Below are positions 1-14,502 of a stretch of 64,000 bases of DNA, in pieces; the stretch's first letter is position 1; every line of letters starts with the position of its first letter. Location: NCBI RefSeq assembly GCF_900100605.1, contig NZ_FNCN01000011.1:1-64000 (forward strand). Reading direction: 5' to 3'. The notes beneath the pieces are model-generated. The model was not told the DNA's origin. It was given only the letters and a program-made list of their open reading frames with translations, and ran no database searches. Origin of the DNA: Sinosporangium album (GTDB lineage: Bacteria; Actinomycetota; Actinomycetes; Streptosporangiales; Streptosporangiaceae). The position numbers and the translations under genes are program-made.

Positions 1-95
1 CCTTCACCAGAGCCCGCCGCGCCAGGCACTTGAACGCGATCCCCCGCTCCACACAGAAACCCCACACCACCTCCCGCACCCGATCGAAACCCTCC
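1..95 (-). pseudogene. Fragment of class III lanthionine synthetase (LanKC), running off the left edge
   Basis: Read on the minus strand this piece encodes residues matching LanKC N-terminal domains (EGFDRVREVVWGFCVERGIA, then FKCLARRALVK). It is base-for-base identical over about 94 bp to 6085-6178 on the plus strand. Identity stops abruptly at position 95. Upstream on the minus strand the frame stays open only to a TAA near 152 and offers no plausible start or leader residues, so this copy has lost its first 65-70 codons. Whether the kinase and cyclase domains continue beyond position 1 cannot be seen. It is either the 3' part of a split synthetase gene or a short relic. Confidence 0.7.
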
Positions 96-441
96 TCGGC
101 CGTCCGTTGTCCCGCCGGCGGGACCTTGCGCCCGGACCGGCGGCGTCTGGTTTATGAATGGCTTTTCGACGGTACGGCGGCGAGATAATCTACTGCCGCG
201 TCGCATGCACCGGACATCACCGCACGCACGCCCGCGACCGCGCTCCGCGGATAAGCGGCCGAGCCGGGTGAGGGCCTTTCCCACGACACACATACGCAGG
301 CGGCACAGGGTGAACAGCCTATTTAAGCAGGCATGAACATATCCCTCCCCCGGCCCTGTCCCGCCGACGGGACCTTGCACGTAGACCGGCGCACGCCTAG
401 CTTAAGGATCGTTTTTCAACGGCATGGAAAGGAGGGAATTC
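96..441. promoter_or_regulatory. Upstream region of precursor 1 with duplicated leader-like segment
   Basis: This 346-bp stretch has no convincing gene. It holds two related direct repeats, about 109-178 and 358-428. Each begins with a 16-bp inverted repeat (gtcccgccggcgggac at 109-124; one mismatch at 358-373), followed by a ccttgc...gaccggcg stretch and a ttttcraacggy-like stretch. The second copy leads directly into the ribosome-binding site of precursor 1. The first leads nowhere and may be the remnant of another precursor unit. The same 16-mer recurs at 4630-4645. A regulator-binding role is inference. Confidence 0.45.
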
Positions 442-540
442 ATGGCCGCATCCGACGTGCTGGCTCTCCAAGGAATCGAGATCCAGATCGAGCACGAGAC
501 TCTGGCCAACAGCGGCGTCAGCTACGCCACGTGTAGCTGA
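442..540 (+). CDS. Class III (labionin-type) lanthipeptide precursor 1
   Basis: A 32-residue peptide preceded by a strong ribosome-binding site (aaggaggg, 5 nt before ATG). The N-terminal half carries the VLALQ box (residues 6-10) followed by Gly-Ile-Glu, which resembles the ILxLQ leader helix of class III lanthipeptides that docks on LanKC. The C-terminal part is NSGVSYATCS. Ser24-x2-Ser27-x3-Cys31 is exactly the spacing that gives labionin in labyrinthopeptins. Thr30 is a further dehydration candidate. The peptide ends in Ser after the Cys, so C-terminal Cys decarboxylation to avionin is not directly possible. It is 53% identical by eye to the peptide at 3505. It stands before the GNAT gene. 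An in-frame ATG at 424 would add six residues but has no ribosome-binding site. Confidence 0.85.
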   Translation: MAASDVLALQGIEIQIEHETLANSGVSYATCS

Positions 541-549
541 GTCCGGCCT

Positions 550-579
550 GTGTAGGGGTCCGCCCTCGGGCTCCCACAC
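550..579 (+). terminator. Imperfect hairpin after precursor 1 (attenuator-like)
   Basis: The arms gtgtagggg (550-558) and ctcccacac (571-579) pair with one mismatch and one wobble. The hairpin lies between the precursor stop and the GNAT start, where RiPP operons often hold a partial terminator that keeps precursor mRNA above enzyme mRNA. The corresponding hairpin after precursor 2 is perfect. Confidence 0.45.
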
Positions 580-606
580 CCGGGGCACATATATGGAAGG
601 CGAGCC

Positions 607-1149
607 GTGATCTTCCCGTATACCGAGACGCACAAGGCGGCCCTGCGCCTCAGCCATTCCATGGACGGTCCGGCCGTCCATGAATTCCTGCAGAAAGAAG
701 AAATGTCCGGGCTGGACAGCCTCGATGTGTTCACCTCGACGTGGCCGCGGAGCCGCGACGAGGTGGCCGCGCAGTTCTCGGTCGAGGAACTCGGCACGGG
801 GAGGCTCGCCGGTTTCACCTCGCTGCACCGGCTCAGCCCGCACAGCCGCTATGTGCAGGGGTGCCTGGCCCTGCCCGGCGGCGACGCCGTCGCGGCCGAG
901 GCCGCCGCGCTGACCGTCAACTACGCCTTCGCCATGTGGAACATCAGGAAGGTGCATTTCTGGACGGTGGCGGAAGGGCTTCCCGGCCTCGCCGCCACGC
1001 CGGTGACCGTGCTGTGTGAGGCGACCCTGCCGGAGTACGTCTACGACCGCGGAACACTCCTCGACATCAACATCTTCGCGGTCTACCGCGACGAGTGGGA
1101 GCGCCACGGGGTGCCTTACGTCACCGCGCTCCTCCAGGAATCCGCATAG
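607..1149 (+). CDS. GNAT-family acyltransferase, unit 1
   Basis: A 180-residue protein of the RimJ/RimL-like GNAT fold starting at GTG after ggaaggcgag. It aligns with the protein at 5316-5873 through the C-terminal half (VNYAFA-W--RKV, then R--WD/LDI--FAV-R-EWER). The acyl-CoA-binding P-loop, normally R/Q-x-x-G-x-G/A, is degenerate here (GGDAVAAEA, about residues 97-105), so it may use another donor such as a carrier-bound acyl group or may be weakly active. GNAT enzymes in avionin clusters (GdvG of goadvionin) join an ACP-bound acyl chain to the peptide N-terminus; a similar role is inferred from its place between the precursor and glycosyltransferase genes. Direct acetylation is the alternative. 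Confidence 0.7.
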   Translation: MIFPYTETHKAALRLSHSMDGPAVHEFLQKEEMSGLDSLDVFTSTWPRSRDEVAAQFSVEELGTGRLAGFTSLHRLSPHSRYVQGCLALPGGDAVAAEAAALTVNYAFAMWNIRKVHFWTVAEGLPGLAATPVTVLCEATLPEYVYDRGTLLDINIFAVYRDEWERHGVPYVTALLQESA

Positions 1150-1158
1150 CCCGGAGGT

Positions 1159-2433
1159 ATGGCAGTGCGCGTGTTGATCGCCACGCAGGCGGAACGGACC
1201 CACTTCCTGGGCATGGTGCCGCTGGCCTGGGCGCTGCGCACGGCCGGCCACGACGTGGTGGTGGCGAGCCAGCCGGAGTTGACGGAGGTGGTCGGCGGCG
1301 CGGGGCTGACGTTCGTCCCGGTCGGCACGGACCACAGGTTCCGGCATGTGATCAAACGGGGGGCGGCGGCGCCGGAGCCCGATTTCGACATGACGGGTCT
1401 CCGGCCGGACCGGGTCACCTGGGAATACCTCCGCGACGGCTACCGCCAGATCGTGCCCTGGTGGTGGCGGATGGTGAACGAGCCGATGCTCGGCGACCTG
1501 ATCGCGTTGTGCCGCGGCTGGCGGCCCGATCTGGTGATCTGGGAGCCGACGACCTTCGCCGGCGCGATCGCGGCCGAGGCGTCGGGCGCCGTACACGCCC
1601 GGTTCCTGTGGAGCGTGGATCTCTTCGCCGGAATGCGCGGACACTACCTGAGGCTGATGCATGAGCAGCCCGCCGGACGGCGTGAGGACCCGCTGGCCGA
1701 CTGGATCGGCACGAGGGTGGCGGCGTTCGGCGGTGAGTTCTCGGAGACGCTGACGCGGGGACATTTCACGATCGACTACATGCCGGACTCACTCCGTCTG
1801 GATGTGCCGTTGCGGTACGCGGCGATGTGTTACGTGCCCTACAACGGGCGGGCCGTCGTGCCGGAGTGGCTGCGCCGCCCGTCGCAGCGGCCCCGGGTCT
1901 GCCTCACGCTCGGGACCACGGCACACGAGCGGTTCGGCAGATACGCGGTGTCGGTGCCGGACCTGATCGAGGCCGTGGGCGATGTCGACGCCGAGGTGGT
2001 GGTGACGCTGCCGCGTGCGCAGCAGGAGAGCCTGCCGCGTGTGCCGGACAACATCAGACTGGTGGACTTCGCCCCGCTCCACGCCGTGCTGCCGACGTGT
2101 GCGGCGATCGTCAACCAGGGCGGGCCGGGGACCGTCTTCACGACCTTGTCGTACGGCGTGCCGCAACTCATCCTGCCGAATCCGCACATGTTCGATGCTC
2201 CGCTTCTGGCCAGGCGGGTCGCGGAGCAGGGGGCCGGCCTCACCGTCGCCAGCGCCGACGTGACCCCCGAGGTGGTGCGGGAGGGGCTGCTCACGGTCCT
2301 CGCCGATCCGGGATTCCGGCGTCACACCAACCGGATCCGGGATGAGATGCGCGGACTGCCGACGCCGAACGCCTTGGTGCCCGAAATCGAAGGGCTCGCC
2401 GCGCATTACCGCCGGCCCGTGGTTACGCAATGA
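1159..2433 (+). CDS. GT1-family glycosyltransferase, activator-dependent type (DesVII/EryCIII-like)
   Basis: A 424-residue GT-B glycosyltransferase. The N-terminus (RVLIATQAERTHFLGMVPLA) is the hallmark of macrolide/anthracycline deoxysugar transferases, followed by W-ALR-AGH-V--ASQP. The C-terminal nucleotide-sugar site is visible as LHAVLPTCAAIVNQGGPGT (near residues 310-330) and PQLILPNPHMFD. The usual His of the H-GG-GT motif is Gln here (NQGGPGT), which could affect diphosphate binding. The gene begins 9 bp after the GNAT stop with a ggaggt-type ribosome-binding site, so the two are co-transcribed. Enzymes of this clade often need a haem-less P450-like partner (DesVIII), and none is nearby. 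Acceptor (peptide or acyl unit) is unknown. It is related to 6312-7640. Confidence 0.85.
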   Translation: MAVRVLIATQAERTHFLGMVPLAWALRTAGHDVVVASQPELTEVVGGAGLTFVPVGTDHRFRHVIKRGAAAPEPDFDMTGLRPDRVTWEYLRDGYRQIVPWWWRMVNEPMLGDLIALCRGWRPDLVIWEPTTFAGAIAAEASGAVHARFLWSVDLFAGMRGHYLRLMHEQPAGRREDPLADWIGTRVAAFGGEFSETLTRGHFTIDYMPDSLRLDVPLRYAAMCYVPYNGRAVVPEWLRRPSQRPRVCLTLGTTAHERFGRYAVSVPDLIEAVGDVDAEVVVTLPRAQQESLPRVPDNIRLVDFAPLHAVLPTCAAIVNQGGPGTVFTTLSYGVPQLILPNPHMFDAPLLARRVAEQGAGLTVASADVTPEVVREGLLTVLADPGFRRHTNRIRDEMRGLPTPNALVPEIEGLAAHYRRPVVTQ

Positions 2434-2448
2434 AATGGGGTGGGCCTC

Positions 2449-3234
2449 GTGTCAGAAGTCGCTCGGGACCTCTATCTCGACCTGATGAAGAAAGCAGTGG
2501 CGAACACGATCTACCAGGACCCCGATATCTGGTTCGGCGACTCGTGGGATGAGATGCGGTCGGGTGTCCGGGAGGATCGCGCGTTCGACGCGAAACGCAG
2601 GGAATACGGCATGGACGTGCCGAGGACCGCGCACACCATGGTCGGCCTGAAGCGCTTGGACAACATCCGTGAGTGCGTCACCGGCGTGCTGGAGGACGAC
2701 GTGCCCGGCGACCTTGTCGAGACCGGTGTCTGGCGCGGCGGCGCGAGCATTTTCATGCGCGCGATCCTCAAGGCGTATGAGGTGAAGGACAGGACCGTCT
2801 GGGTGGCCGACTCCTTCGAGGGCCTTCCGGTGGCGGACACGGAGAAGTATCCGGCCGACCGCTGGGCCCCGCTCCACCTCATGAACGACCTGCTCACCGC
2901 CTCCGCCGACACGGTGCGCGAGAACTTCAAGGCGTACGGCCTGCTCGACGGCCAGGTCCGGTTCCTGGAGGGCTGGTTCCGCGACACGCTGCCGGACGCG
3001 CCGATCGAGCGCCTTGCCGTACTCCGCATGGACGGGGACCTTTACGAGTCGACCATGGACGCCCTCACTCACCTCTATCCGAAGCTGTCGCCCGGCGGAT
3101 ACGTGATCGTCGACGATTACAGCGCCCTGGTGTCGTGCCGACTCGCCGTCACCCATTACCGGGAAAAGCACGGCATCGGCGATCCGATTCATACCGTCGA
3201 CCGCTCCGGCGTTTATTGGCAAAAGAGCGGCTGA
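2449..3234 (+). CDS. TylF/MycF-type SAM-dependent O-methyltransferase
   Basis: About 261 residues of the TylF (macrocin O-methyltransferase) family, which methylates hydroxyls of glycosyl residues on finished natural products in a Mg2+-dependent reaction. Family signatures are LKRLDNIRECVTGVLEDDVPG, GDLVETGVWRGGASIFMRA, VWVADSFEGLP, RMDGDLYESTMDAL and PGGYVIVDDY; the Asp pairs in the last two are the metal-binding positions. I chose GTG 2449 because the ggggtggg run lies 5 nt upstream; GTG 2440 is also possible. It follows the glycosyltransferase by 15 bp, which suggests methylation of the sugar that enzyme attaches. It is the last gene of the first unit. Confidence 0.88.
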   Translation: MSEVARDLYLDLMKKAVANTIYQDPDIWFGDSWDEMRSGVREDRAFDAKRREYGMDVPRTAHTMVGLKRLDNIRECVTGVLEDDVPGDLVETGVWRGGASIFMRAILKAYEVKDRTVWVADSFEGLPVADTEKYPADRWAPLHLMNDLLTASADTVRENFKAYGLLDGQVRFLEGWFRDTLPDAPIERLAVLRMDGDLYESTMDALTHLYPKLSPGGYVIVDDYSALVSCRLAVTHYREKHGIGDPIHTVDRSGVYWQKSG

Positions 3235-3504
3235 CCTGAGCGGCCTTTTGCAGCGGACCGCTCCGACGGCCCGCGGCAAACCATGCCCGGATATCGCCGG
3301 ATGGCCGTTTTAGGACATCAGGTTGCCCGCCTTCGGAACAGACATTTAGCGTGAATATCACCTGGTACGGACCGTCTGCGTATTCCAGAATCGCACTGCG
3401 GCTTCACAGGGAATTCATTGCCGACCGCAATGGAATCCCCGGCGGGGCCGCGAGGCCTGCCGAGGGTTTTATCGCCGCGACGACGGAAAGGAGAGGAGGT
3501 TCCC
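3235..3504 (+). promoter_or_regulatory. Intergenic region upstream of precursor 2
   Basis: This 270-bp stretch between the methyltransferase and precursor 2 has no supported gene. Its last 30 bases (acggaaaggagaggagg) carry a double Shine-Dalgarno for precursor 2 and resemble the leader of precursor 1. A promoter is likely here because the preceding gene is a different unit, but no clear -10/-35 pair was identified. Confidence 0.35.
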
Positions 3505-3603
3505 ATGGTTCTGTCCGACGTTCTCGCCCTGCAGGACATCGACGTTGCTCCCGAGCACGAGGTTCTGCCGCACAGCGGGCTCAGCATCGCGACGTGCAGC
3601 TAA
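3505..3603 (+). CDS. Class III (labionin-type) lanthipeptide precursor 2
   Basis: A 32-residue peptide, same length as precursor 1, with ribosome-binding site gaggagg upstream of ATG. The leader has VLALQDID (residues 6-13) and the conserved pair Glu-His-Glu (residues 17-19). The core HSGLSIATCS repeats the labionin spacing Ser24-x2-Ser27-x3-Cys31 and the terminal Ser. Conservation is strongest in the leader box and in SG-S-ATCS, with variation at ring-internal residues (Val/Leu, Tyr/Ile), as expected for paralogous RiPP precursors under selection. It is followed by a perfect hairpin at 3611-3640 and then by convergent genes, so it is probably a monocistronic transcript. A further in-frame upstream extension is open to about 3418 but lacks support. 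Confidence 0.85.
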   Translation: MVLSDVLALQDIDVAPEHEVLPHSGLSIATCS

Positions 3604-3610
3604 GCCCCAC

Positions 3611-3640
3611 GGTGTGGGGGCCCTTCCGGGCCCCCACACC
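3611..3640 (+). terminator. Perfect 13-bp hairpin after precursor 2
   Basis: The arms ggtgtgggggccc and gggcccccacacc flank a ttcc loop and are followed by cccttt. It starts 7 nt after the precursor stop and ends 25 nt before the convergent DUF4429 gene, so it can act as a terminator for precursor 2. Confidence 0.8.
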
Positions 3641-3665
3641 CTTTGTCCGCCATCCGGACCGCCCG

Positions 3666-4568
3666 CTACTCGGAACCGTCGGCCATGCGTCGCAGGAGAA
3701 CCTGCTTGGCGAGGGTGAATTCCTCGTCGGTGAGCGTCCCTTCGCGATGCAGTTCCCCCAGTTCGCGCAGACGCCGCAGCATCACGTCGGGATCGGCGCC
3801 GGCACCGCCAGGATTGACGGCACCGCCGGCACCGCCCGGGGTCAGCGCGGGCTGGGAGGGATTGAACGGATGCGGCAGACGGGCCGCCACCGCAGCCGCC
3901 ACGAGCACCGTTGTCCCACCTTCACGTTCGATGCCCCACTTGCTCCAACGCAGGCAGGCGAGCTCCTGATTCGAGGGAGCACCGACATGACCGCTTTTCA
4001 GAAGAAAGCAGAGCCTCCCGTCCTCACCTCCGGCGAGCGGCACCCATTCCACACCCGCCACGGCGCCCACGGGGATCCTCTGCGGACCGGCCGCCTTCTT
4101 GGGCTCGATCGCGGTCCAATTCCATTCGAAGTTGATCAGCTCTCCGTCGAACGACACCGTCCCGTCCCCCACCGAAGCGGAGGCGGGAACCTGGGGGCCC
4201 GGCAGGAGATAGCGGTCCGCAGGCCCTTCCGGGACCTGCTCGATCAGCAGCGCATGCCGTACTTCATCGACGAAGTATTCGGCCACCCCCGTGCGTTCGG
4301 GGTCGGGTGCCAACTGATAGGGGTCGGCGTCGCCCAACCGCCCGGCGGCCACCTGAAGCAGCGGGTCTGCGCCCTCACGCAGCCTCAGCCGCAGAGCACC
4401 GCCCTTGCGGCCCGGCTCGTAGGCGACGCCCGCGACAGCGGGCAGGGGAATCGACACCTCGCCCAGTGCCCTGCGCAGCTTGGGCACGTGCCTTTTGCGG
4501 TTGGGGACCACGCGAATGCGTTCGCCGTCGAAAGTCCAGATTCCATCTCGTCCGATCACCTCGGCCAT
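3666..4568 (-). CDS. DUF4429 domain protein with C-terminal SHOCT domain
   Basis: A 300-residue soluble protein with two DUF4429-type beta-rich repeats: one begins DGIWTFDGERIRVVPNRK near residue 8, the second DGTVSFDGELINFEWNW near residue 135. After a Gly/Pro/Ala linker comes a C-terminal SHOCT helix pair (LRELGELHREGTLTDEEF, then KQVLLRRM). The domains are reminiscent of PH-like folds and are common in Streptomyces with no defined reaction. It starts 9 bp after the stop of the LuxR gene, so the two form one minus-strand operon. A link to lanthipeptide production is only positional. Confidence 0.75.
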   Translation of the reverse strand: MAEVIGRDGIWTFDGERIRVVPNRKRHVPKLRRALGEVSIPLPAVAGVAYEPGRKGGALRLRLREGADPLLQVAAGRLGDADPYQLAPDPERTGVAEYFVDEVRHALLIEQVPEGPADRYLLPGPQVPASASVGDGTVSFDGELINFEWNWTAIEPKKAAGPQRIPVGAVAGVEWVPLAGGEDGRLCFLLKSGHVGAPSNQELACLRWSKWGIEREGGTTVLVAAAVAARLPHPFNPSQPALTPGGAGGAVNPGGAGADPDVMLRRLRELGELHREGTLTDEEFTLAKQVLLRRMADGSE

Positions 4569-4577
4569 GGCGTGAGT

Positions 4578-5246
4578 TTATTGGCGCGGCGCGCTCTCGG
4601 GGCACATGTCCTGATCGTGGTGGTGCCGGGTCCCGCCGGCGGGACAGGGAAGCCACCCGAGCTGGTGAGCACGCACGGCGAGTTCGAACCTGCTGGCGGC
4701 GCCGGCCGCCTGCATCAGCCCGCTGATCTGACGGCGGACCGTGCGCTCGGCGATGCTCAGCCGCGCCGCGATGGCCGCATCGGTCAGCCCCCCGGCCAGA
4801 AGGTGCAGGATCACCGGCCCACGCCCCTCGACCACCGGCGCCGGGCACGCCACATCCCACAGATGGTCCGCCATCGAGGCCAGCGTCGCCACGTGAGGGG
4901 CGTTCGCCGTCAGGAACACGCGAGTGCCGCCCTCTCCATACGGCAGGCGCACCACGGCCGCCCGCCCGTCCACGATGGCCGCCGACAGCGGCACCGCGCC
5001 CAGCACACGTACCTGCGGACCCGCCGCGACCTCGTTGTCGAACGGGGCGGGCGTTCGTACGATGCGCACCAAGCCGATGTGGGGCAGGTCCGCCAGAGAA
5101 TCGGCAACCGTACGGCCGAGCGGATCGTCGCCCAGAACGGCCACGAGTTCTTCGACGCCGCGTTCGGCGAGCAGGTGCACCACGGCCCGCAATCTGTTCT
5201 CCGGAATGGGCCGTTCGGGCTTCAAATGTGCCGCAACCTTGTGCAT
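4578..5246 (-). CDS. LuxR-family transcriptional regulator
   Basis: A 222-residue protein whose C-terminal third is a LuxR/NarL winged HTH (ILHLLAGGLTDAAIAARLSI, then AERTVRRQISGLM, about residues 145-180). The N-terminal part resembles the degenerate phospholipase-D-like sensor region of small actinomycete LuxR proteins; no receiver Asp or ATPase site is seen. The gene is divergent from the GNAT at 5316 with 69 bp between starts, and cotranscribed with DUF4429. The start ATG at 5246 has no evident Shine-Dalgarno, so it may be leaderless. A 16-bp palindrome also found upstream of precursor 1 lies inside its 3' end (4630-4645). It is the best candidate for a pathway-specific regulator of the lanthipeptide genes. 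Confidence 0.8.
   Translation of the reverse strand: MHKVAAHLKPERPIPENRLRAVVHLLAERGVEELVAVLGDDPLGRTVADSLADLPHIGLVRIVRTPAPFDNEVAAGPQVRVLGAVPLSAAIVDGRAAVVRLPYGEGGTRVFLTANAPHVATLASMADHLWDVACPAPVVEGRGPVILHLLAGGLTDAAIAARLSIAERTVRRQISGLMQAAGAASRFELAVRAHQLGWLPCPAGGTRHHHDQDMCPESAPRQ
4630..4645. repeat. 16-bp palindrome shared with the precursor 1 upstream region
   Basis: The sequence gtcccgccggcgggac is identical to 109-124 and differs by one base from 358-373. Here it is inside the LuxR coding sequence. It may be an operator or a chance GC-rich palindrome. Confidence 0.35.
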
Positions 5247-5315
5247 ATTCAGTCATATTGACATAGAAAAATATCTACGGAATCCCCGAGGGAACCTTTT
5301 TCGGGAAAGGCGGTA

Positions 5316-5873
5316 ATGGTGCTGATCGCTCACCTGGAGACGAGGCAAGTCGCATTGCAGCCGGCGGAGGCGGCCGACGGCCTTTCCTTCTATCAACTGC
5401 TATTGCGCCTCGGACTGCACAGTCTTCCGTCGATGGAATCGTTTCTCAAAAGCTTCGAAGAGCGGCCCGAGACGCTGGCCGCGGTCTTCGCCATCCGCCT
5501 GCGGGAGAACGGCGAACTCCTCGGATTCGGCTCGCTCCAGGAACGCGACCGCGCCGGCCACATTCAAGTGGGCCTGTTCATGGAAACAGAACGCGTCCGG
5601 CGGGGTGTGGGTGCCGAGGCGATGATGCTGCTGGTGAATTACGCGTTCGCGGTGTGGCCGGAGTTGCGGAAGGTGTATTTCCTGACGACGGACGCGAGTC
5701 TGCCGAGGTTCGGTTCGGCGTTGCTGGCGACGCCTCGGGAGGCGTCGCTTCCTGCGCATGTGTTCTTCCGGGGGCGGTTGTGGGATCTGCATTTCTATGC
5801 GGTGGGTCGTGGTGAGTGGGAGCGGGTGGGGGCTCGTCTTCTGGGGCGGCTTGCGGGGGTGGCGGGTGTTTGA
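5316..5873 (+). CDS. GNAT-family acyltransferase, unit 2
   Basis: A 185-residue RimJ/RimL-like GNAT protein. Unlike its paralogue at 607 it keeps a good pantetheine-binding loop (RVRRGVGAEAM, about residues 90-100), followed by the shared LLVNYAFAVW and RKVYF strands. Start ATG has gggaaagg upstream. The gene ends 4 bp before the LanKC start, so acyltransferase and synthetase were once co-translated, which ties this GNAT to peptide maturation. By analogy with GdvG it may acylate the N-terminus of a modified precursor; plain acetylation is the alternative. From about base 5595 the third-position bias turns strongly G-rich, as in the adjoining LanKC fragment. Confidence 0.78.
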   Translation: MVLIAHLETRQVALQPAEAADGLSFYQLLLRLGLHSLPSMESFLKSFEERPETLAAVFAIRLRENGELLGFGSLQERDRAGHIQVGLFMETERVRRGVGAEAMMLLVNYAFAVWPELRKVYFLTTDASLPRFGSALLATPREASLPAHVFFRGRLWDLHFYAVGRGEWERVGARLLGRLAGVAGV

Positions 5874-5877
5874 GCGG

Positions 5878-6213
5878 GTGGAGATGCACACGTTCGCCGA
5901 TCCGGTGTTCTTCGAGGATCCGGCGCGGTGGGTGTCGGGTCGGGGTTTCGTGGCGGACGGGGCGCGGGAGCCGGTGGTGCCGGCGGGGTGGCGGCGGGTG
6001 GTGCGGGGGATCTGGTGCGTGGTGGTGCCGGAGGGGGCGGTGCTGGCGGAGCAGGGGTGGAAGGTGCATGTGTCGTGCACGGTGGAGGGTTTCGATCGGG
6101 TGCGGGAGGTGGTGTGGGGTTTCTGTGTGGAGCGGGGGATCGCGTTCAAGTGCCTGGCGCGGCGGGCTCTGGTGAAGGTGGTGAATGCGAAGTACGCGCC
6201 TCGGGGGTCGAGT
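5878..6213 (+). pseudogene. 5' fragment of class III lanthionine synthetase (LanKC), truncated
   Basis: About 112 residues match the start of LanKC enzymes: TFADPVFFEDPARWV, VPAGWRRVVRGIW, AEQGWKVHVSCTVEGFDRV, the RGIAFKCLARRAL strand and the landmark NAKYAPRGSS. LanKC proteins are about 850-900 residues with lyase, kinase and cyclase domains; here homology stops at base 6213 within the lyase region. The frame runs on to 6579, antisense to the glycosyltransferase, without similarity. A short repeat (ctctgagcg..gttcccc, twice within 6215-6260) marks the break. The start (GTG 5878 or ATG 5884) is coupled to the GNAT stop. Bases 6085-6178 are repeated, inverted, at 1-94. It is not a working synthetase by itself. 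Confidence 0.85.
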
Positions 6214-6311
6214 GCTCTGAGCGTTCCCCGCACTCTGAGCGCGTTCCCCGGATCGCGAAGAAGGCCAGGAACCGCCCGCCCCCGGACGAGCGCGGGAGGC
6301 GGGCGGCCGGG

Positions 6312-7640
6312 TCAGGGCCGGTATTCGGCGACGAGCCGTTCGATCTCGGCGACGACGCCGTTCGGGGTGGGCATGGCCGCCATTTCCTCGCGGAGCTGCC
6401 CGGCGCCTTTGGCGTACGCGGGGTCGTCGAGGAGGCGCAGGAGGTTCTCGCGGACATGGTCGCCGGTGGCGTCGCGGCAGGGGAGGGCGAGGCCGGCGCC
6501 GAGGTCGGCGATGCGTTCGGCGGTCAGCGGCTCGTCGAACATCTGCGGGTGGGGGACGACGAGCTGCGGCACGCCGTAGCCCGCGGCGGTGAGGGCCGCG
6601 CCGGCGCCGCCGTGGTTGATCAGCGCGGAGCAGGTGGGCATGAGCGCGTGCAGGGGTGCCCCGTTCATGACGCGCACGTTGTCGGGCACGTGCCCGAGTT
6701 TCTCCTGCTCGGCGGGCGGCATGGAGGCGACGATCTCTAGGTCGAGGTCGGCGAGGGAGTCGAGGATCTCCCGCACCGGGACGGCGCTGCGGCCGAAGCG
6801 CTCGGTGAGGGTGGTCTCGACGGTGAGGCAGACGCGCCGCCGTTCGGCGTCGCCGCGGAGCCAGTGGGGGACGACGGCGCGCCCGCTGTAGGGGATGTGC
6901 CGTACGGGCACGTGGTGCAGGTCGGCCCCGGTGTCGATGCGCAGCGAGGCGGGGAACGGGTCGACGGTGAAGTGTCCCGTGGTCATCTCCTCGGAGAACG
7001 CGCCGCCGAGGGGGCGCATGCGCGCGTCGAGCCATTCGGCCAGGATGTCCTGGCGGCTGTCGGCGGGCCGCTGCGAAAGCAGGCGCAGGAAGCGTGCGCG
7101 CATCCGGCCCAGTAGGTCGTGGCTCCAGAGGAACCGGGCGTGGGCCGCGCCCACCGCCGCGGCGGCGATCGGCGCCGCGTAGGTGGTGGGTTCCCAGATG
7201 ACGAGGTCGGGCCTCCACTGCCGGCAGAGCGCGGTCAGGTCGTCGATCATCGGCTCGTTGACGACCTTCCACCACCACGGGACGAACTGGCTGTAGCCCG
7301 TGGTCAGGTAGTCCCAGGTGAAGCGTTCGAGGTCGCGTTCGGCGAGGTCGAACCCGGGTTCCGCTTCGAGTACGGCGGTGCCGTCCAGGGTGGTGCCGTC
7401 CAGGGTGGTGCCGTCCGGGGTGGTGCCGTCCGAGGTGGTGCCGTTCGGCGCCATGAGCCGCCCGAGCATGTGGTCTTTGCCGACGGGGACCACCGTGAGG
7501 CCGGTGTCGGCGATGACGTCGACGAGCGCGGGCTGGCTGGCCGCCCGCACCTCGTGGCCGCCGGTCCGCAGCGCCCACGCCAGCGGAACCATGCTGAGGA
7601 AGTGGTTCTTCTCCGCATAAGAAGCGAACAGAATGCGCAC
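6312..7640 (-). CDS. GT1-family glycosyltransferase, activator-dependent type, unit 2
   Basis: A 442-residue GT-B enzyme paralogous to 1159-2433. It shares RILFASYAEKNHFLSMVPLA at the N-terminus, VPWWWK-VNEPM, RPDLVIWEPTTYAAPIAAAA and the C-terminal donor site LMPTCSALINHGGAGA with an intact His and Gly-Gly. About residues 68-88 contain a Thr/Asp/Gly repeat (DGTTLDGTTLDGT) encoded by 15-bp tandem repeats, absent from the paralogue. The GTG start at 7640 has aaaggg 6 nt upstream. It is divergent from rmlA across a region with an operator-like inverted repeat (7696-7740), so it is probably co-regulated with the sugar genes. No P450-like activator gene is nearby. Confidence 0.85.
   Translation of the reverse strand: MRILFASYAEKNHFLSMVPLAWALRTGGHEVRAASQPALVDVIADTGLTVVPVGKDHMLGRLMAPNGTTSDGTTPDGTTLDGTTLDGTAVLEAEPGFDLAERDLERFTWDYLTTGYSQFVPWWWKVVNEPMIDDLTALCRQWRPDLVIWEPTTYAAPIAAAAVGAAHARFLWSHDLLGRMRARFLRLLSQRPADSRQDILAEWLDARMRPLGGAFSEEMTTGHFTVDPFPASLRIDTGADLHHVPVRHIPYSGRAVVPHWLRGDAERRRVCLTVETTLTERFGRSAVPVREILDSLADLDLEIVASMPPAEQEKLGHVPDNVRVMNGAPLHALMPTCSALINHGGAGAALTAAGYGVPQLVVPHPQMFDEPLTAERIADLGAGLALPCRDATGDHVRENLLRLLDDPAYAKGAGQLREEMAAMPTPNGVVAEIERLVAEYRP
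7381..7440. repeat. 15-bp tandem repeat inside glycosyltransferase gene
   Basis: Four consecutive copies of ccgtccagggtggtg-like units (copies 1 and 2 identical, 3 and 4 with one or two changes), in frame, encoding Asp-Gly-Thr-Thr-x repeats. The length is likely variable between strains by slippage without a frameshift. Confidence 0.9.
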
Positions 7641-7695
7641 GCCATGCCCTTTCTTGGAAGTGCGGACGGTTGGGAGGTTAACCAGCGCCGAAAGG

Positions 7696-7740
7696 ACTTC
7701 CAACCCCTACGCAGGGGTCGCTAGGGGTTGAAAGGGAAGT
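7696..7740. promoter_or_regulatory. Interrupted palindrome between divergent glycosyltransferase and rmlA
   Basis: The outer arms acttc (7696-7700) and gaagt (7736-7740) and inner arms caacccct (7701-7708) and aggggttg (7723-7730) form an inverted repeat around a centre that itself holds aggggt. It lies in the 154-bp divergent intergenic region, the usual place for an operator controlling both genes. The binding protein is unknown. Confidence 0.55.
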
Positions 7741-7794
7741 GCTTGCCGATCATACGATTCGCTTGGGAAAAAGCCGTTTAAGCGGGGAGTGATC

Positions 7795-8682
7795 GTGAAG
7801 GGAATCGTCCTGGCAGGGGGTAGCGGCACCCGATTGCACCCCATTACGCTGTCCACCTCGAAACAGCTTCTGCCGGTCTACGACAAGCCGATGATATATT
7901 ACCCGTTCGCCGTGCTCATGATGGCGGAGATCAGGGATGTCCTTATTATTTCCACGCCCGATGTCCTGCCCGCGATTCAAGCGCTTTTCGGTGACGGGTC
8001 GCAATTCGGCGTGAGCGTCGACTACGCCGCCCAGACCGAGCCGCGCGGAATAGCCGACGCCTTTCTGGTCGGCGAGAGGCATGTCCGGGGCCGGCCGTGC
8101 GCCCTCGTGCTCGGCGACAACATCTTCCACGGTCCCGGCTTCGGCGATCTGCTGACGACGGCGCGCAAGGAACTCGATGGATGCGCGCTGTTCGGCCGCA
8201 GGACCGATGAGCCGAGCCGGTTCGCGATCGCCGGACTCGACGCCGGGGGAACGCTGACCTCGATCGAGGAGAAACCGGCCGCGCCCCTTTCCGACTGGGC
8301 GGTGACCGGGCTCTACTTCTATGACGAGAACGTCGTGGAAATCGCCAAGTCGATCAGCCCGTCCGCCCGCGGAGAACTTGAGATAACCGACGTGAACAGG
8401 GTCTACCTCGGTGAGGGGACGGCCCGGATGGTGCGTTTGGACGAGCGCTTCGCCTGGCTCGACGCGGGCACCAGCGAATCACTGCTCGAAGCAGGCCGGT
8501 TCGTCAGGTCGGTCCACCGCGAACAGGGCGTGCGCATTGCCTGTCTGGAAGAGATAGCACTGCACATGGGATTCATCGACGCCGACCATTGCCACCGGCT
8601 GGGATTCGATATGCGGAATTCGGAGTACGGCCGCTACGTCATGGACGCGGCCCGGCGGTGGGACGACTCGCGACAAGGGTGA
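7795..8682 (+). CDS. rmlA: Glucose-1-phosphate thymidylyltransferase
   Basis: About 295 residues, the usual length of RmlA. It makes dTDP-glucose from glucose-1-phosphate and dTTP. The signature GIVLAGGSGTRLHPITL at the N-terminus with LLPVYDKPMIYYP directly after is diagnostic; further family blocks are LGDNIFHG, EEKPAAPLSDWAVTGLYFYD and GELEITDVNRVYL. GTG 7795 has gcggggag 6 nt upstream; GTG 7789 is an alternative. It starts the plus-strand operon that runs through the carrier protein gene at 17111, with rmlB 6 bp downstream. It supplies activated sugar for the two glycosyltransferases. Confidence 0.95.
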   Translation: MKGIVLAGGSGTRLHPITLSTSKQLLPVYDKPMIYYPFAVLMMAEIRDVLIISTPDVLPAIQALFGDGSQFGVSVDYAAQTEPRGIADAFLVGERHVRGRPCALVLGDNIFHGPGFGDLLTTARKELDGCALFGRRTDEPSRFAIAGLDAGGTLTSIEEKPAAPLSDWAVTGLYFYDENVVEIAKSISPSARGELEITDVNRVYLGEGTARMVRLDERFAWLDAGTSESLLEAGRFVRSVHREQGVRIACLEEIALHMGFIDADHCHRLGFDMRNSEYGRYVMDAARRWDDSRQG

Positions 8683-8688
8683 ACGCGG

Positions 8689-9711
8689 ATGCGCATGTTG
8701 GTCACCGGAGGTGCCGGGTTCATCGGCTCCAACCTCATCAGGCAGACGCTCGCCGGCGTCTACCCCTGGCTCGCCGACCACGAGATCGTGGTGCTCGACA
8801 AGCTGACCTACGCCGGCACCAGGGAGAGCCTGCTGCCGGTCGCGGGCGATCCTCGGCTGACGTTCGTCCACGGCGACATCTGCGACATCGACCTCGTGGC
8901 CGAGGTGATGACCGGCGTCTCCCTCGTCGTGCACTGCGCCGCCGAGAGCCACGTCGACCGTTCCATCGCCGGCGCCGACGACTTCGTCAGGACCAACATC
9001 ACGGGCACCCACGTCCTCATCGAGGCCGCCCGCCGGGCCGGGGTGGACAAGTTCGTGCTGGTCTCGACCGACGAGGTGTACGGCACGACCGACGAGGGCA
9101 CTTGGACCGAGGACGCCCCGCTCCGCCCGAACTCGCCGTATGCCGCGTCCAAGGCCGCGGCCGACCTCCTGGCCCGGGCGTTCCACCAGACCCACGGCTT
9201 CCCCGTCACGGTGACCCGGTGCTCCAACAACTACGGCCCCTACCAGTTTCCCGAGAAGCTGATCCCACTGTTCGCCACCAACCTGCTCGACGGTGAACCG
9301 GTGCCGCTGTACGGCGACGGCGGCCACGTGCGGGAATGGATCCACGTGGACGATCACTGCCGGGGCATCGCGCTGGTCGCCGACCGGGGAAGGCCGGGCG
9401 AGGTCTACCACTTCGGCGGCACGGACGGCCTGACCAACCTCACGGTGACCGAGGCCGTCTTGAAGGCGCTGGGCGCGGACTGGTCCATGGTGGACTTCGT
9501 CGCCGACCGCAAGGGGCACGACCGCCGCTATTCGGTCGACTGCGGCAAGGCGAGGACCGAGCTGGGCTTCCGGCCCACCATCGGCTTCTCCCAGGGCCTG
9601 ATCGACACCGTCAAGTGGTACGCCGACAACCGGGCCTGGTGGGAGCCCCTGAAGAAACGCGAGCGGTCCCGCCGGCGAGACAGCGCACAAGTGCCGACCT
9701 TGAGAGGTTAG
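8689..9711 (+). CDS. rmlB: dTDP-glucose 4,6-dehydratase
   Basis: A 340-residue extended-SDR enzyme converting dTDP-glucose to dTDP-4-keto-6-deoxyglucose. Visible are the NAD site GGAGFIGSN (residues 7-15), the catalytic Thr127-Asp128-Glu129 trio in VSTDEVYG, Tyr151-x3-Lys155 in YAASK, and NNYGPYQFPEKLIP. Length matches the family. The C-terminus has a short Arg-rich tail. No downstream epimerase, 4-ketoreductase or aminotransferase of the classical pathways is in this window apart from the aldo/keto reductase at 17483, so the final sugar is either simple or uses genes elsewhere. Confidence 0.95.
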   Translation: MRMLVTGGAGFIGSNLIRQTLAGVYPWLADHEIVVLDKLTYAGTRESLLPVAGDPRLTFVHGDICDIDLVAEVMTGVSLVVHCAAESHVDRSIAGADDFVRTNITGTHVLIEAARRAGVDKFVLVSTDEVYGTTDEGTWTEDAPLRPNSPYAASKAAADLLARAFHQTHGFPVTVTRCSNNYGPYQFPEKLIPLFATNLLDGEPVPLYGDGGHVREWIHVDDHCRGIALVADRGRPGEVYHFGGTDGLTNLTVTEAVLKALGADWSMVDFVADRKGHDRRYSVDCGKARTELGFRPTIGFSQGLIDTVKWYADNRAWWEPLKKRERSRRRDSAQVPTLRG

Positions 9712-9713
9712 CC

Positions 9714-10991
9714 GTGACCTTCACCGAACTCGATCCCGACGATCTACTCGCCTCCGGGCTGACCGCCCCGGAGCTCGCCGATCACCCCTGGTCGGTGCGC
9801 TGGGACCAGGCGGGCGGGCTGGACATCGGCGCGCTTCCGCCGTACCTCGACCTGCAGACGTCGGGCAGCACCGGCGCGCCGCGGCGGTGGCGGCGCACCA
9901 GGGAGCAGCTCTGGGCCGAGGCGGCCATGCTGGCCGGGCTGCTCGCCGACGAGCGCCCGGAGGCGGTGCTGACGTTCGCGCCGCCGCGCCACTTGTACGG
10001 CGCGCTGGTGAGCGTGCTTGTGCCCGCCTACATGCGGCTTCCCGTCTGGTACCACCCGCAGCGCGGCGGGCTGCCCCCCGCGGAGCTGGCCCGCCGCTGG
10101 GCGGTCATGGCCATCCCGATGGCCTTCCCGCTGCTGCTGCGCCGCGCCGCATGGGTGAGCGCCGCCGACCGGCTCGTGATCGTGCACAGTACGGCGACGC
10201 TGCCGTCGGCGGCGGCCGAGCTGCTGGACCTGGCGGGGGAGGGGCGCGCGACGATCACGGAGATCTTCGGCTCGACGGAGACCGGCGGCGTCGCCACCCG
10301 GACGTGGGAGCCCGGCAATCCGCCGTGGCGCCTGTTCGACGACGTGGAGTTCGCGGCCCGGGCCGCCGACTCGGCCGCCGACGCCGATAACGCCGACGCC
10401 GACGACTCCCACGGCGCCGACGACTCCCACGGCGCGGACGGGGCCGGCGGCGCGGACGGGGCCGGCGGCGCGGACGGGGCCGACGACACCGACGACGCAG
10501 ACGGGGCCGACGGCGCGGCCGACACGGACGAACGGCGAACGCCGGGCGAGGAGGTCCCGCTGACGATCACCAGCCCGAGGCTGGCCGCCCCGGAGGGCGG
10601 CCCGGCGCCCGCCGCGCGGCGGATGGACGACCACGTGACAATCCTGGACGGGCGCACCTTCGCGTTCGCGGGCCGCCGCCACCGCCTGGTCAAGGTGAAC
10701 GGCCGCCGCATCGACCTCGACGAGCTCGAACGCACCCTGCGCACCTTCGTCCCCGCGGCCGACCTGGCGTGTGTGCCGGTGGTCGACGCCGCGACCGGCG
10801 AACACTTCGACCTGCTTCTCGTCCCCCGGCCGGGAGCGTCCTCCGTACGGCTCGACCTGCGCGAGGTGATCGCCCGCATCGGGCTGCGCCCGCGCAGGGT
10901 GGGGCTGGTCGCGAGGATCGAACGGTCGGACACCGGCAAACTGCGCCGCCTCCAGCAGCCGTTCACCGCGGGCGTGGGAGCGGACGCGTGA
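9714..10991 (+). CDS. Stand-alone acid-adenylating enzyme of the ANL superfamily (aryl-polyene-type ligase)
   Basis: A 425-residue, short ANL protein. The ATP loop LQTSGSTGAPRRW is near residue 45, with Arg where most members have Lys. EIFGSTETGG, RHRLVKVNGRRIDLDELE and a near-C-terminal DTGKLRR (catalytic Lys) are present. Short ligases of this kind sit beside aromatic ammonia-lyases in aryl polyene clusters and load the cinnamate-type acid on a carrier. Here too the ammonia-lyase starts inside its stop codon (GTGA overlap at 10988). Between the A5 and A8 motifs is an Ala/Asp/Gly-rich low-complexity insert of about 50 residues (bases 10362-10520). Substrate is inferred from the neighbour, probably a cinnamic or coumaric acid. 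Confidence 0.75.
   Translation: MTFTELDPDDLLASGLTAPELADHPWSVRWDQAGGLDIGALPPYLDLQTSGSTGAPRRWRRTREQLWAEAAMLAGLLADERPEAVLTFAPPRHLYGALVSVLVPAYMRLPVWYHPQRGGLPPAELARRWAVMAIPMAFPLLLRRAAWVSAADRLVIVHSTATLPSAAAELLDLAGEGRATITEIFGSTETGGVATRTWEPGNPPWRLFDDVEFAARAADSAADADNADADDSHGADDSHGADGAGGADGAGGADGADDTDDADGADGAADTDERRTPGEEVPLTITSPRLAAPEGGPAPAARRMDDHVTILDGRTFAFAGRRHRLVKVNGRRIDLDELERTLRTFVPAADLACVPVVDAATGEHFDLLLVPRPGASSVRLDLREVIARIGLRPRRVGLVARIERSDTGKLRRLQQPFTAGVGADA
10362..10520. repeat. Low-complexity Ala/Asp/Gly-coding insert with short tandem repeats
   Basis: Degenerate GC-rich repeats, including two copies each of gacgactcccacggcgc and gcggacggggccggcg, insert a run of ADGAGGADGAGGADGADDTD-type residues into the ligase. 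They lie between catalytic motifs, so the fold should tolerate them as a loop. The run could vary in length by slippage. Confidence 0.85.
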
Positions 10992-12526
10992 CCGCCCTGA
11001 CCGAACGGCAGGAGCTCCAGCGCCTCGCCGACCTCGTGCGCGCCGCCGCGTTCGGGGCCGTCCTGCGGCCCTGCGGCCCCGAGGAGGCCGCGGCCATGCG
11101 CGTGAGCGCCGCCGGTCTCGCCGAGGCGCTCGCCGCCAAGGACCCCGTGTACGGGGTCACCCAGGGGTTCGGCCCGCTGGTCGTGTACGAGGCCGCCGAC
11201 TCCCCGGTGGAGCAGGGCGGCGGCCTCATCTCCCACCTCGGCTCCGGCCAGGGGCGGCCGCTGCCTCCCGAGGCGTCCAGGCTGGCCGTGTGGCTGAGGC
11301 TGAACAGCATGCGCCTCGGCTACTCGGCCGTGTCGCCGGAGTTCTGGCAGGGGCTGGCCGACCTGTGGAACCGGGGCTTCACCCCCGTCATCCCGCGCGA
11401 CGGCACCGTCAGCGCCAGCGGCGACCTGCAGCCGCTCGCGCACGCCGCCCTCTCCCACGCGGGCACGGGCGAGGCGTGGACACGCGACCGGGCCGGCCGG
11501 TGGGGCCGCGTCCCCGCGGCGGAGGCGCTCGCGGCGATCGGCGCGAGCCCCGTCGAATGGTCGGCGCGGGAGGCGCTGGCCTTCGTGAACGGCACCAGCG
11601 TAGGCCTGGCCGTCAGCGTGCTCAACCATCAGGAGGTGCTGCGCCTGGCCCGCGCAGTGGCGATGCTCACCGGCCGCGTCGTGCGCCTGCTCGGAGCCAG
11701 CCCCGAGGCCTACCACACGGGGGTGGCGCGGGCGCGCGGCCAGGCCGGGCAGTTCACCGCGGCCCGATGGGTGCGCGACGAGCTGCCCGCCGGCCATGCG
11801 CGGGAACCGTCCCGCCCCCTCCAGGAGCCCTACAGCCTGCGCTGCGTCCCCCAGGTGGTGGGCGCCGTGCTCGACCAGCTCGCCGCCGCCGAGGCCATCC
11901 TGCTGACCGAGGCGGCCGGCTGCACCGACAACCCCGTGTACGTCGACGGGAAGATCCTGCACGGCGGCAACTTCCACGCCATGCCGGTCGGGCTCTGCTC
12001 CGACCAGCTCGGGCTCTGCCTGCAGCAGCTCGCCTACCTGGCGGACCGGCAGCTCGCGCTGATCTGCGCACCGTCCGGTAACGGCGGCCTGCCCCCCATG
12101 CTGACGCCCAGGCCCGGCGGCGGCAGCGGCCTGGCGGGCGTGCAGATCAGCTCGACCTCGTTCGTGTCGCGCATCAGGCAGCTCGTCTACCCTTCCTCGC
12201 TCACCGCGCTGCCCACCAACGGCGGCAACCAGGACCACGTGCCGATGGCGCTGAACGGCGCCAACGCCGTCGCCGACGCGCTGGAGCCGGCCTGGCTCGT
12301 CGTGGGCTCCCTCGCCGTCGGCGTCGCCCAGCTCACCGCGCTGTCGGCCGACCGCCCTCGGCCGGAGCCCGGCGGCGTGTGGGCCGACCTGGCCGAGATC
12401 TCCCCGCCCCTTGAGGCCGACCGTCCGCTCGCGCCCGAGGTGCGGGCGGCGAGCGCGCTGTGCGCGCGCGCCGCGGCGGACCTCCTCGGCGAGGAGGACG
12501 GCTCGCCGGGGGGAGGCGGCCGGTGA
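10988..12526 (+). CDS. Aromatic amino acid ammonia-lyase (MIO type; HAL/TAL/PAL family)
   Basis: A 512-residue enzyme with the self-cyclising Ala143-Ser144-Gly145 triad (GTVSASGDLQPLAH) that forms the MIO electrophile. YGVTQGFGPL near residue 55, the REALAFVNGTS block and NPVYVDGKILHGGNFHA are also conserved. At the position that selects substrate, the LISHLGSGQG loop offers His-Leu, the pair seen in bacterial tyrosine ammonia-lyases, so p-coumarate is the favoured product; an aminomutase is possible and histidine less likely. It overlaps the ligase upstream and the methyltransferase downstream (GTGA at 12523), giving a tightly coupled three-gene set for making, activating and methylating an arylpropenoic acid. 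Confidence 0.88.
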   Translation: MTALTERQELQRLADLVRAAAFGAVLRPCGPEEAAAMRVSAAGLAEALAAKDPVYGVTQGFGPLVVYEAADSPVEQGGGLISHLGSGQGRPLPPEASRLAVWLRLNSMRLGYSAVSPEFWQGLADLWNRGFTPVIPRDGTVSASGDLQPLAHAALSHAGTGEAWTRDRAGRWGRVPAAEALAAIGASPVEWSAREALAFVNGTSVGLAVSVLNHQEVLRLARAVAMLTGRVVRLLGASPEAYHTGVARARGQAGQFTAARWVRDELPAGHAREPSRPLQEPYSLRCVPQVVGAVLDQLAAAEAILLTEAAGCTDNPVYVDGKILHGGNFHAMPVGLCSDQLGLCLQQLAYLADRQLALICAPSGNGGLPPMLTPRPGGGSGLAGVQISSTSFVSRIRQLVYPSSLTALPTNGGNQDHVPMALNGANAVADALEPAWLVVGSLAVGVAQLTALSADRPRPEPGGVWADLAEISPPLEADRPLAPEVRAASALCARAAADLLGEEDGSPGGGGR

Positions 12527-13365
12527 GGTACGACGACATCGACAGCGAGGCCGTCTGGAACCGGCTCGGCGACGACCATCCGGTGCTCGGCCCGGTGTCG
12601 GAGGACTCCGTCGACCGCCTACTGCGCCGCGCCCGGCTCAAGCCGGGCGCGCGGGTGCTGGACCTCGGCTGCGGGCTCGGCGCGTGGGTGCTGCGCGCCC
12701 TTGAGCTGCACCCCGACGCCGTCGGCCACGGCGTGGACGTGTCCGCGCCGCACATCGCGGAAGCCCAGGACCGGGCCAAGGATCGCGGGCTCGACGCCAG
12801 GGCCGCGTTCCAGGCGGCCGACGCCCGCGCGTTCACCTCGCGGCAGCCGTACGACCTGGTGATGTGCGTCGGCCTGTCCGACGCGTTCGGCGGGCTGCGC
12901 CGCAACCTCGACCATCTGCGTCCGCTCGTCGCCCCCGGCGGCGTGGCCCTGGTCGGCGAGCCGTTCTGGGAACGCGAACCGGACGAGCGGGCGCTCGCGG
13001 CGCTCGGCGTGGAGGCGTCCACGCACACCGGCCTGGCCGGGACGGTGGACCGGTTCGCCGCGGCCGGGTGGGCGCCCGTCCACGCGCACATCAGCAGCGC
13101 CGCCGAGTGGGACGACTTCCAGTGGGCGTGCGTGGGCGCCCTCGCCCGCTGGGGCCTGGACGCCGCCGCGCCCTCCGCACCGGCCGGGGTCGGCAGCCGC
13201 GACATCCTGCGGACCGCCCGCGACGGGCAGGAGATCTTGCGCTATATGGCCGACTACCGCGACACGTGGCTGCGCGCGTGGCGCGGGACCCTCGGCTTCG
13301 CGACGTTCCTGCTCCGCCCGGTCCCGCCGTGGGCGGCCTTCCTGCGCCTGCCCCGGCAGGTGTAG
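12523..13365 (+). CDS. Class I SAM-dependent methyltransferase
   Basis: A 280-residue methyltransferase with the SAM motif I VLDLGCGLGAWVLRAL (about residues 44-59), acidic GHGVDVS at motif II and QAADARAF plus YDLVMCVGLSDAFGG at motifs III/IV. It resembles UbiE/SmtA-type small-molecule methyltransferases acting on O, N or C. Start GTG overlaps the ammonia-lyase stop, so it probably acts on the product of that pathway or its carrier-bound form, but the atom methylated cannot be predicted. Confidence 0.8.
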   Translation: MRYDDIDSEAVWNRLGDDHPVLGPVSEDSVDRLLRRARLKPGARVLDLGCGLGAWVLRALELHPDAVGHGVDVSAPHIAEAQDRAKDRGLDARAAFQAADARAFTSRQPYDLVMCVGLSDAFGGLRRNLDHLRPLVAPGGVALVGEPFWEREPDERALAALGVEASTHTGLAGTVDRFAAAGWAPVHAHISSAAEWDDFQWACVGALARWGLDAAAPSAPAGVGSRDILRTARDGQEILRYMADYRDTWLRAWRGTLGFATFLLRPVPPWAAFLRLPRQV

Positions 13366-13367
13366 GC

Positions 13368-13409
13368 GGCCACGTGCGGCCACGTGCGGCCACGTGCGGC
13401 CACGTGCGG
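13368..13409. repeat. Four tandem 10-bp repeats with CACGTG core
   Basis: The unit cggccacgtg repeats four times directly after the methyltransferase stop. Each contains the perfect hexamer palindrome CACGTG. It lies in the 110-bp gap before the KASIII-like gene, so it could be a regulator-binding array or a slippage product. Confidence 0.8.
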
Positions 13410-13475
13410 GCGCGGTGCGGGCGCCGCGCACGACTGTCACATCCGGATCGGCACCAGAGGGGAGAGCTCACACCT

Positions 13476-14501
13476 GTGCGTACTCCAGATCTCTTCATCG
13501 GCGGCCTCGGCGTCCACCTCCCGGAGGTGGTGAGCGTGCGGTCGGCGATCGAGCAGGGGCTCTGCACCCCCGAACAGGCGGCGGTGCACGGCATGACCTC
13601 GGCGGCGGTGGCGGGGGACCTCCCCGCGCCGGAGATGGCGCTGCGGGCCGCCCGGGACGCGGTCGAGCAGTGCCCGGCCGACCTCGGCCTGCTGCTGTAC
13701 GCCGACACCTGGCACCAGGGGCCCGAGGCGTGGTTCCCGCACTACTACCTGCAGCGCCACCTGGTGGGCGACGTGTTGGCGGCGGAGGTACGGCAGGGCT
13801 GCAACGGCCTGTTCTGCTCCCTGGAGCTGGCCGCCGCCTACCTGCGCGCGACACCGTCCACGTCGGCCGCCATGCTGGCCGCCGCCGACAACTACGGCAC
13901 CCCGCACATCGACCGGTGGCGTTCCGGCCCGTTCATCCTGGGGGACGGCGCCTGCGCGATGGTGCTCACCAAGGACACCGGGTTCGCCCAGGTGCTGTCG
14001 GTCGGGTCGGCCGCCATCCCCGAGCTGGAGGAGCAGCACCGCTGCGGCGAGCCGCTCTTCCCGCCCGGCGCCACGACCGGGGCCATGGTGGACTTCACCG
14101 CCCGGGACGAGGCGTTCGTGCGCCTGTCCGCCGAGCGGAGCGACCTGCGGCTCGCCTGGATCGTCGCGCACAAGAAGATGATGCAGCTGGTGAGCCGGGT
14201 TCTGGCGGAGGCGGGCATCACCGCGGCCGACCTGACCAGGGCCGCCTTCACCAACCTCGCCCCCGAGTCCATCGAGCACCGCTGGATGGAGGTGCTGAGG
14301 ATGCCGATGGACAGATCCACCTGGGACTACGGCAAGACGGTCGGACACACCGGCGCCGGCGACCCGTTCATCGCCCTGCACCACCTGCTCGCGACCGGCG
14401 AACTCAAGGCCGGAGACCACGTGATCATGGGCGGCGTCGGCTCCGGGCTCACCGTGTCCTGCGCCGTAGTGAAGATCCTCGAACGGCCTGACTGGGACTG
14501 A
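13476..14501 (+). CDS. KASIII-like acyltransferase (CloN2/CerJ-type)
   Basis: A 341-residue thiolase-fold protein with the nucleophile Cys109 (RQGCNGLFCSLELAAAYL). The normal KASIII His and Asn are absent: the His position reads FTNLAP (Asn260), and the Asn-loop reads GKTVGHTGAGDPF, offering His291 and Asp296 instead. This pattern fits KASIII homologues that move acyl groups rather than condense malonyl units (CerJ in cervimycin, CloN2 in clorobiocin). It lies immediately 5' of the pyrrole-forming genes, in the same order as CloN2-N3-N4-N5. I infer that it transfers the pyrrole-2-carbonyl group to a second carrier, sugar or peptide. GTG 13476 has ggggagag upstream. Confidence 0.78.
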   Translation: MRTPDLFIGGLGVHLPEVVSVRSAIEQGLCTPEQAAVHGMTSAAVAGDLPAPEMALRAARDAVEQCPADLGLLLYADTWHQGPEAWFPHYYLQRHLVGDVLAAEVRQGCNGLFCSLELAAAYLRATPSTSAAMLAAADNYGTPHIDRWRSGPFILGDGACAMVLTKDTGFAQVLSVGSAAIPELEEQHRCGEPLFPPGATTGAMVDFTARDEAFVRLSAERSDLRLAWIVAHKKMMQLVSRVLAEAGITAADLTRAAFTNLAPESIEHRWMEVLRMPMDRSTWDYGKTVGHTGAGDPFIALHHLLATGELKAGDHVIMGGVGSGLTVSCAVVKILERPDWD

Positions 14502-14502
14502 T

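Follow-up and report, generated by a model that had tools for sequence, protein, structure and literature searches.

The window analysed here, 64,000 nucleotides of Sinosporangium album, is the beginning of a 245,765-bp contig (G000:C59:1-64000, hereafter C59) in a draft genome of 97 contigs. It holds the 5' end of a gene for a class III lanthipeptide synthetase, LanKC, and, at its left edge, an inverted copy of part of that gene. Taken at face value, the draft suggests a peptide pathway that is either dead or switchable, and an earlier note on this DNA read it in that way. We consider a more ordinary account to be fairly probable: a single LanKC gene was broken by an assembly gap, a second fragment of LanKC of about 130 bp lies nearby, and the split was made by the assembly. 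In the cell LanKC is then probably intact and its cluster whole, although divided in the draft over C59 and a second contig, C16. The apparent inversion split is best explained as a contig break combined with an undecided orientation; an invertible switch is not supported, and a real, once-only inversion is the main rival. The case illustrates that a branch in an assembly can be recognised from how long a repeat at a contig end is. A genuine inversion would represent a novel mode of control over the maturation of ribosomally synthesized and post-translationally modified peptides (RiPPs).

Two complementary parts of one gene

The 5' part of LanKC (5878..6213, plus strand) comprises 112 codons and encodes the first part of a RamC_N domain (Pfam, E 2.7e-25 for 5878-6216); homology to LanKC stops at 6213-6222. 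It directly follows a GNAT gene, GNAT2, that ends at 5873. A whole-genome search with the LanKC of a relative, G054, retrieved the rest of the gene as a 727-residue frame, free of stops, on the minus strand of C16 (76,018 bp); it is cut off by the right end of that contig and lies on the very strand that would continue C59:95-1. The earlier note was thus right that the 5' end is joined to a GNAT gene, that the piece at the left edge lacks a start and that LanKC continues beyond the window.

The two parts cover model positions 6-88 (C59) and 117-186 (C16) of RamC_N, complementary halves of one lyase domain, and the window contains two precursors with the SxxSxxxC core, both features expected of a LanKC system. 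Over nearly its full length the C16 part aligns with seven LanKC homologues at 46-48% identity. Its LANC_like match is weak (7.1e-10); C16 was not reported in a genome search for LANC_like, and no kinase family is listed for this part. The residues falling between the two parts number 28-30 in all seven aligned homologues (in G230 the alignment to the 5' part stops at residue 99, and the count starts there). Because no 20-base word of the window recurs in the final 3000 bases of C16, this gap must stand for missing sequence, of 84-90 bases. The end of C16 carries ABC genes and the 3' part of LanKC, C59 the remaining cluster genes; each contig thus seems to hold one half of a single cluster.

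Base composition also links the two broken ends. When 1644 windows of 480 bp were scanned over 100 kb (the 64-kb window and 36 kb of C16), an absolute GC skew of at least 0.40 was found in five, all of them at the broken ends of LanKC. With both ends lying in one G-rich patch, the two parts must once have been joined. The patch itself, within GNAT2-LanKC, spans 5600-6213 and about 490 bp at the end of C16; it is the most skewed sequence of the 100 kb checked and has abrupt edges. It is perhaps a recent gene-conversion tract, and it may explain a loss of coverage at the gap.

The genome holds a second class III LanKC, at G000:C44:175437-178034, a 929-aa open frame with no internal stops. We rejected the idea that the stump on C59 is a remnant of that gene, the two being only 44% identical.

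A repeat that ends where the contig ends

A repeat search, rechecked base by base, gave two arms, 1-95 and 6084-6178, of 95 nt, 100% complementary and 5988 nt apart; the bases directly outside them differ (A versus T). This identity, which the earlier note had correctly pointed out, is not due to chance. The arm at 6084-6178 lies inside the 5' part of LanKC, and 1-95, read on the minus strand, has the same LanKC frame without a start codon: it is a copy of codons ~70-100, identical at 95 of 95 bases, that stops exactly at the contig end. Since the first base of the window is also the first base of C59, the left copy of the repeat is the contig end itself, and its best reading is an overlap of the assembly graph. 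With window positions 1-300 as query, no third copy appeared in the genome. The segment present twice would measure about 130 bp (6084..6213, plus strand); its first 95 bases only are seen twice in the assembly, and the extension of the second copy to ~6213 is proposed from the point where homology to LanKC ends.

Is a length of 95 bases peculiar to this place? The comparison took in 82 contig ends: 40 contigs contributed both of theirs, C79 its left and C16 its right one. Twelve of them, from six short contigs, read as N and were set aside. The 70 readable ends formed 19 pairs with at least 25 bases in common. In two pairs exactly 95 bases were common to both termini: the right end of C59 with the left end of C2, and the ends of C19 and C77, which have their first 95 bases in common. 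Three more pairs had 93-94 common bases, the stretch being terminal in one contig only in two of them. The remaining 14 pairs had at least 190, with none between 95 and 190. Such lengths suggest the K-1 overlap expected of a graph assembler working at K=96. The unipaths of ALLPATHS-LG are built at K=96 (PMC5905499), and the present genome may have come from an assembler of this kind. The repeat thus behaves as overlaps in de Bruijn graph assemblies do, in reaching a contig terminus and in having the length found at other ends; what sets it apart from the usual K-1 overlap is its place within a gene, on a segment probably present in two copies.

How an assembler could produce this anatomy may be pictured as follows. 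The segment of about 130 bp (6084 to ~6213) would be present twice, inverted, 6 kb apart, and longer than the 96-base word of the assembler. Leaving LanKC beyond this segment, the assembler would have stopped at the G-rich stretch, with the loss of 84-90 bases, and C16 would have stayed a contig of its own. The graph would then have offered two ways into the repeat, one from GNAT2-LanKC and one from the promoter side of precursor gene 1, which are the two ends of a single 6-kb piece. With the way to C16 lost through the G-rich gap, a single way out would remain, towards the next glycosyltransferase gene, GT2. Either end of the 6-kb piece could serve for the join; the assembler would have used the LanKC end, and the unused end would have become a contig end with the 95-base overlap seen elsewhere. 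The order in the cell would most likely be GNAT2, the 5' part of LanKC (5878-6213), ~90 missing bases and C16, forming one gene of ~870 codons, while the other copy, 130 bp long, would be a remnant lying between GT2 and the promoter of precursor 1. What the data show directly is the position of the contig end, the recurring 95-base overlap, two gene parts that complement each other, their common G-rich patch and the relatives; how far the second copy extends, its origin and the true orientation are what we infer.

Gene order in relatives

A homologue of GNAT2 (E at most 1e-20) is present in 25 of 341 genomes of the family, that of S. album included. LanKC follows it, on the same strand, in seven of the other 24 (G001, G200, G204, G205, G223, G230 and G238), at a spacing of 78-120 bp in five and of 0.7-0.8 kb in G001 and G238. 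In G054 LanKC lies ~14 kb from GNAT2. The synthetase is a single open frame in G001, G054, G200, G204, G205, G230 and G238; that of G223 spans the border of two stretches and was seen only as adjacent matches. A search for further related LanKC sequences returned distant ones only, at three loci (32-44% identity).

The order in G205 is ABC, LanKC(-), GNAT2(-), precursor(+), GNAT1(+), GT1(+), a further glycosyltransferase(-), rfbA(+), rfbB(+), AMP-ligase, phenylalanine ammonia lyase (PAL), KAS and acyl-CoA dehydrogenase (ACAD). G200, G223 and G230 have about this order or its mirror image, and the stretch of G204 ends within it. A motif scan of open frames found precursor-like peptides in the relatives, not all with the exact SxxSxxxC spacing; in G223 (L191, G223:C1:2751565-2752660) five precursor-like genes with Cys-rich cores stand in a row ahead of GNAT1.

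For S. album two blocks may be distinguished: S, from the 5' part of LanKC through GNAT2 and the LuxR gene to the DUF4429 gene, and P, from precursor 1 to precursor 2. The order of the G205 type is S then P, that with an intact LanKC is S then P reversed, and that of the assembly is P then S reversed. By this reasoning the intact form would lie one inversion (of P) away from the G205-type order, with a separate explanation needed for the copy of about 130 bp.

Several points weigh against an intact gene split by the assembly. One comes from gene order: GNAT1 and rfbA share one strand in 8 of the 8 relatives that have both (G054, G056, G200, G205, G223, G230, G256 and G276, among 11 mapped genomes), as they do in the assembled orientation, whereas the orientation that restores LanKC places them on opposite strands. 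Synteny therefore backs GNAT2-LanKC as a unit and at the same time backs the assembled orientation of GNAT1 and rfbA, and so it does not settle the matter. The comparison with related genomes, which the earlier note had recommended, accordingly yields a GNAT2 upstream of an unbroken LanKC in seven of them and leaves the orientation undecided. Moreover, 17 of the 24 other genomes with GNAT2 show no LanKC in the 1.5 kb that flank the examined loci, a few weaker second GNAT matches lying outside those loci. The observed anatomy fits the artefact exactly, yet an assembled path that was true would yield the same anatomy. If an intact ancestor had undergone an inversion with staggered breaks, the second copy would have come with it, where the intact form requires a separate event. 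From the skew patch it follows only that the two LanKC parts were once joined. Finally, the analysis covers the assembled contigs, which do not prove the orientation. In preferring the assembly break we have given an intact enzyme more weight than the strand of GNAT1 and rfbA, a judgement and not a proof.

Inversion, switch or chimera

The main rival takes the assembled orientation as true: LanKC would have been hit by the staggered breaks of a recent inversion that happened once, leaving a stump of 112 codons and a 3' part without its head, and this strain would have a silent cluster. We find this unlikely, while granting it a substantial share of the doubt. Inversions with staggered breaks, as papers on Drosophila term them, carry one short inverted copy at each end, and such an event would have left copies of this kind here; the likeness lies in these copies, while the assembled structure need not be that of the genome. 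Beside this and the common strand of GNAT1 and rfbA stands the path chosen by the assembler, a choice of little weight since the other exit from the repeat is missing. Starting from the G205-type order, this reading takes two inversions or more, where the intact form takes one, and it ruins a cluster enzyme that is otherwise intact. Indeed, if the C16 part were fused to the left end through 95-1, no in-frame start codon would be available between the last stop and the repeat, so that in the assembled orientation LanKC would be dead.

A reversible switch, with both orientations present in the population through homologous recombination of the ~130-bp copies or through a recombinase, and peptide maturation turned on or off accordingly, is very improbable. 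To its account may be put perfect inverted repeats of at least 95 bases around the segment that carries the 5' part of LanKC, one arm of which is a contig end, and an assembly compatible with either orientation; neither amounts to positive support for reversible control, which has none. Searches for two families of site-specific recombinases, Resolvase and Phage_integrase, gave 2 and 13 matches in the genome, none of them on C59 or C16. The repeat is ordinary LanKC coding sequence, and LanKC is one open frame in all seven relatives checked. Without a recombinase, a short inverted repeat flips rarely. That the 6-kb segment should invert in growing cultures through these copies, only a fraction of the cells maturing the peptide, is hardly credible to us. 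Of the inversion, reversible or once-only, that the earlier note had proposed, there remain a segment bounded by repeats, whose orientation matters, and the once-only event as an unlikely rival; the reversible form and the control device are not supported, the repeat being at a contig end with the overlap length found at other contig ends. An open literature search found no paper joining lanthipeptides, phase variation and DNA inversion.

The least probable rival, that chimeric library molecules made the join of promoter and LanKC at 95/96, without a second genomic copy, can point to a strong palindrome (109-124) 13 bases from the join, but would require the joins at 95/96 and near 6213 both to be chimeric within the same 130 bases and the true join of promoter and GT2 to be missing.

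The cluster around the break

Seen from the left end, the 95-base copy is followed by the upstream region of precursor 1 (96..441, plus strand), with two copies, at 109-124 and 358-373, of the palindrome GTCCCGCCGrCGGGAC. The window has four matches to it at no more than two mismatches, against 0.39 expected; a third site, at 4630-4645, lies upstream of the DUF4429 gene and inside the end of the LuxR frame. The palindrome recurs in the related clusters of G054, G056, G200, G204, G205 and G230, some copies standing beside GNAT2 or a precursor, and is absent from the examined stretches of G001, G223, G238, G256, G276 and C16. It is perhaps the operator of the regulator of the cluster. In the same region a promoter-like stretch is duplicated (108-172 and 357-422, 77% identical). 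The first copy has no recognisable precursor after it and is perhaps the trace of a lost precursor gene.

Precursor peptide 1 (442..540, plus strand) has a leader with VLALQ and the core SGVSYATCS, of the SxxSxxxC pattern. On the same strand follow GNAT1 (607..1149), acyltransferase-like, with no Pfam match of its own and 34% identical to GNAT2; GT1, an EryCIII-like glycosyltransferase (1159..2433, E 9.7e-59); a TylF-like O-methyltransferase (2440..3234, E 8.5e-104); and precursor peptide 2 (3505..3603), with the core SGLSIATCS. The minus strand then encodes a DUF4429/SHOCT protein (3666..4568), recognised by domain match, and a LuxR-type regulator (4578..5246; GerE, E 2.5e-6). GNAT2, also recognised by domain match (5316..5873, plus strand), stands directly upstream of LanKC, a neighbour order kept in seven relatives. 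Beyond the 5' part of LanKC, 6214..6311 is the 3' flank of the next glycosyltransferase gene, here joined to the truncated LanKC. That gene, GT2, also EryCIII-like (6312..7703, minus strand, E 6.7e-56), is convergent with the 5' part of LanKC, and its true start is probably ~20 codons inside the frame.

The peptides of known class III systems of the RamC/LabKC type include NAI-112, which is glycosylated and contains labionin (PMC8624038), and the lipolanthines (PMC10435860). The present cluster resembles these systems in its RamC_N domain, the full-length alignment of its LanKC, its SxxSxxxC precursors and its many glycosyltransferases; it differs from the likes of NAI-112 and the lipolanthines in having PAL, AMP-ligase, KAS-like, ACAD-like and paired GNAT genes. 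An open literature search returned no paper joining class III lanthipeptide, glycosylated and phenylalanine ammonia lyase. Positions 1-16000 of the window and C16:40000-76018 together form a class III lanthipeptide cluster of large size, in which numerous glycosyltransferases of the EryCIII-like kind stand beside these paired GNAT, PAL, AMP-ligase, KAS-like and ACAD-like genes, and similar clusters are present in other genera of the family.

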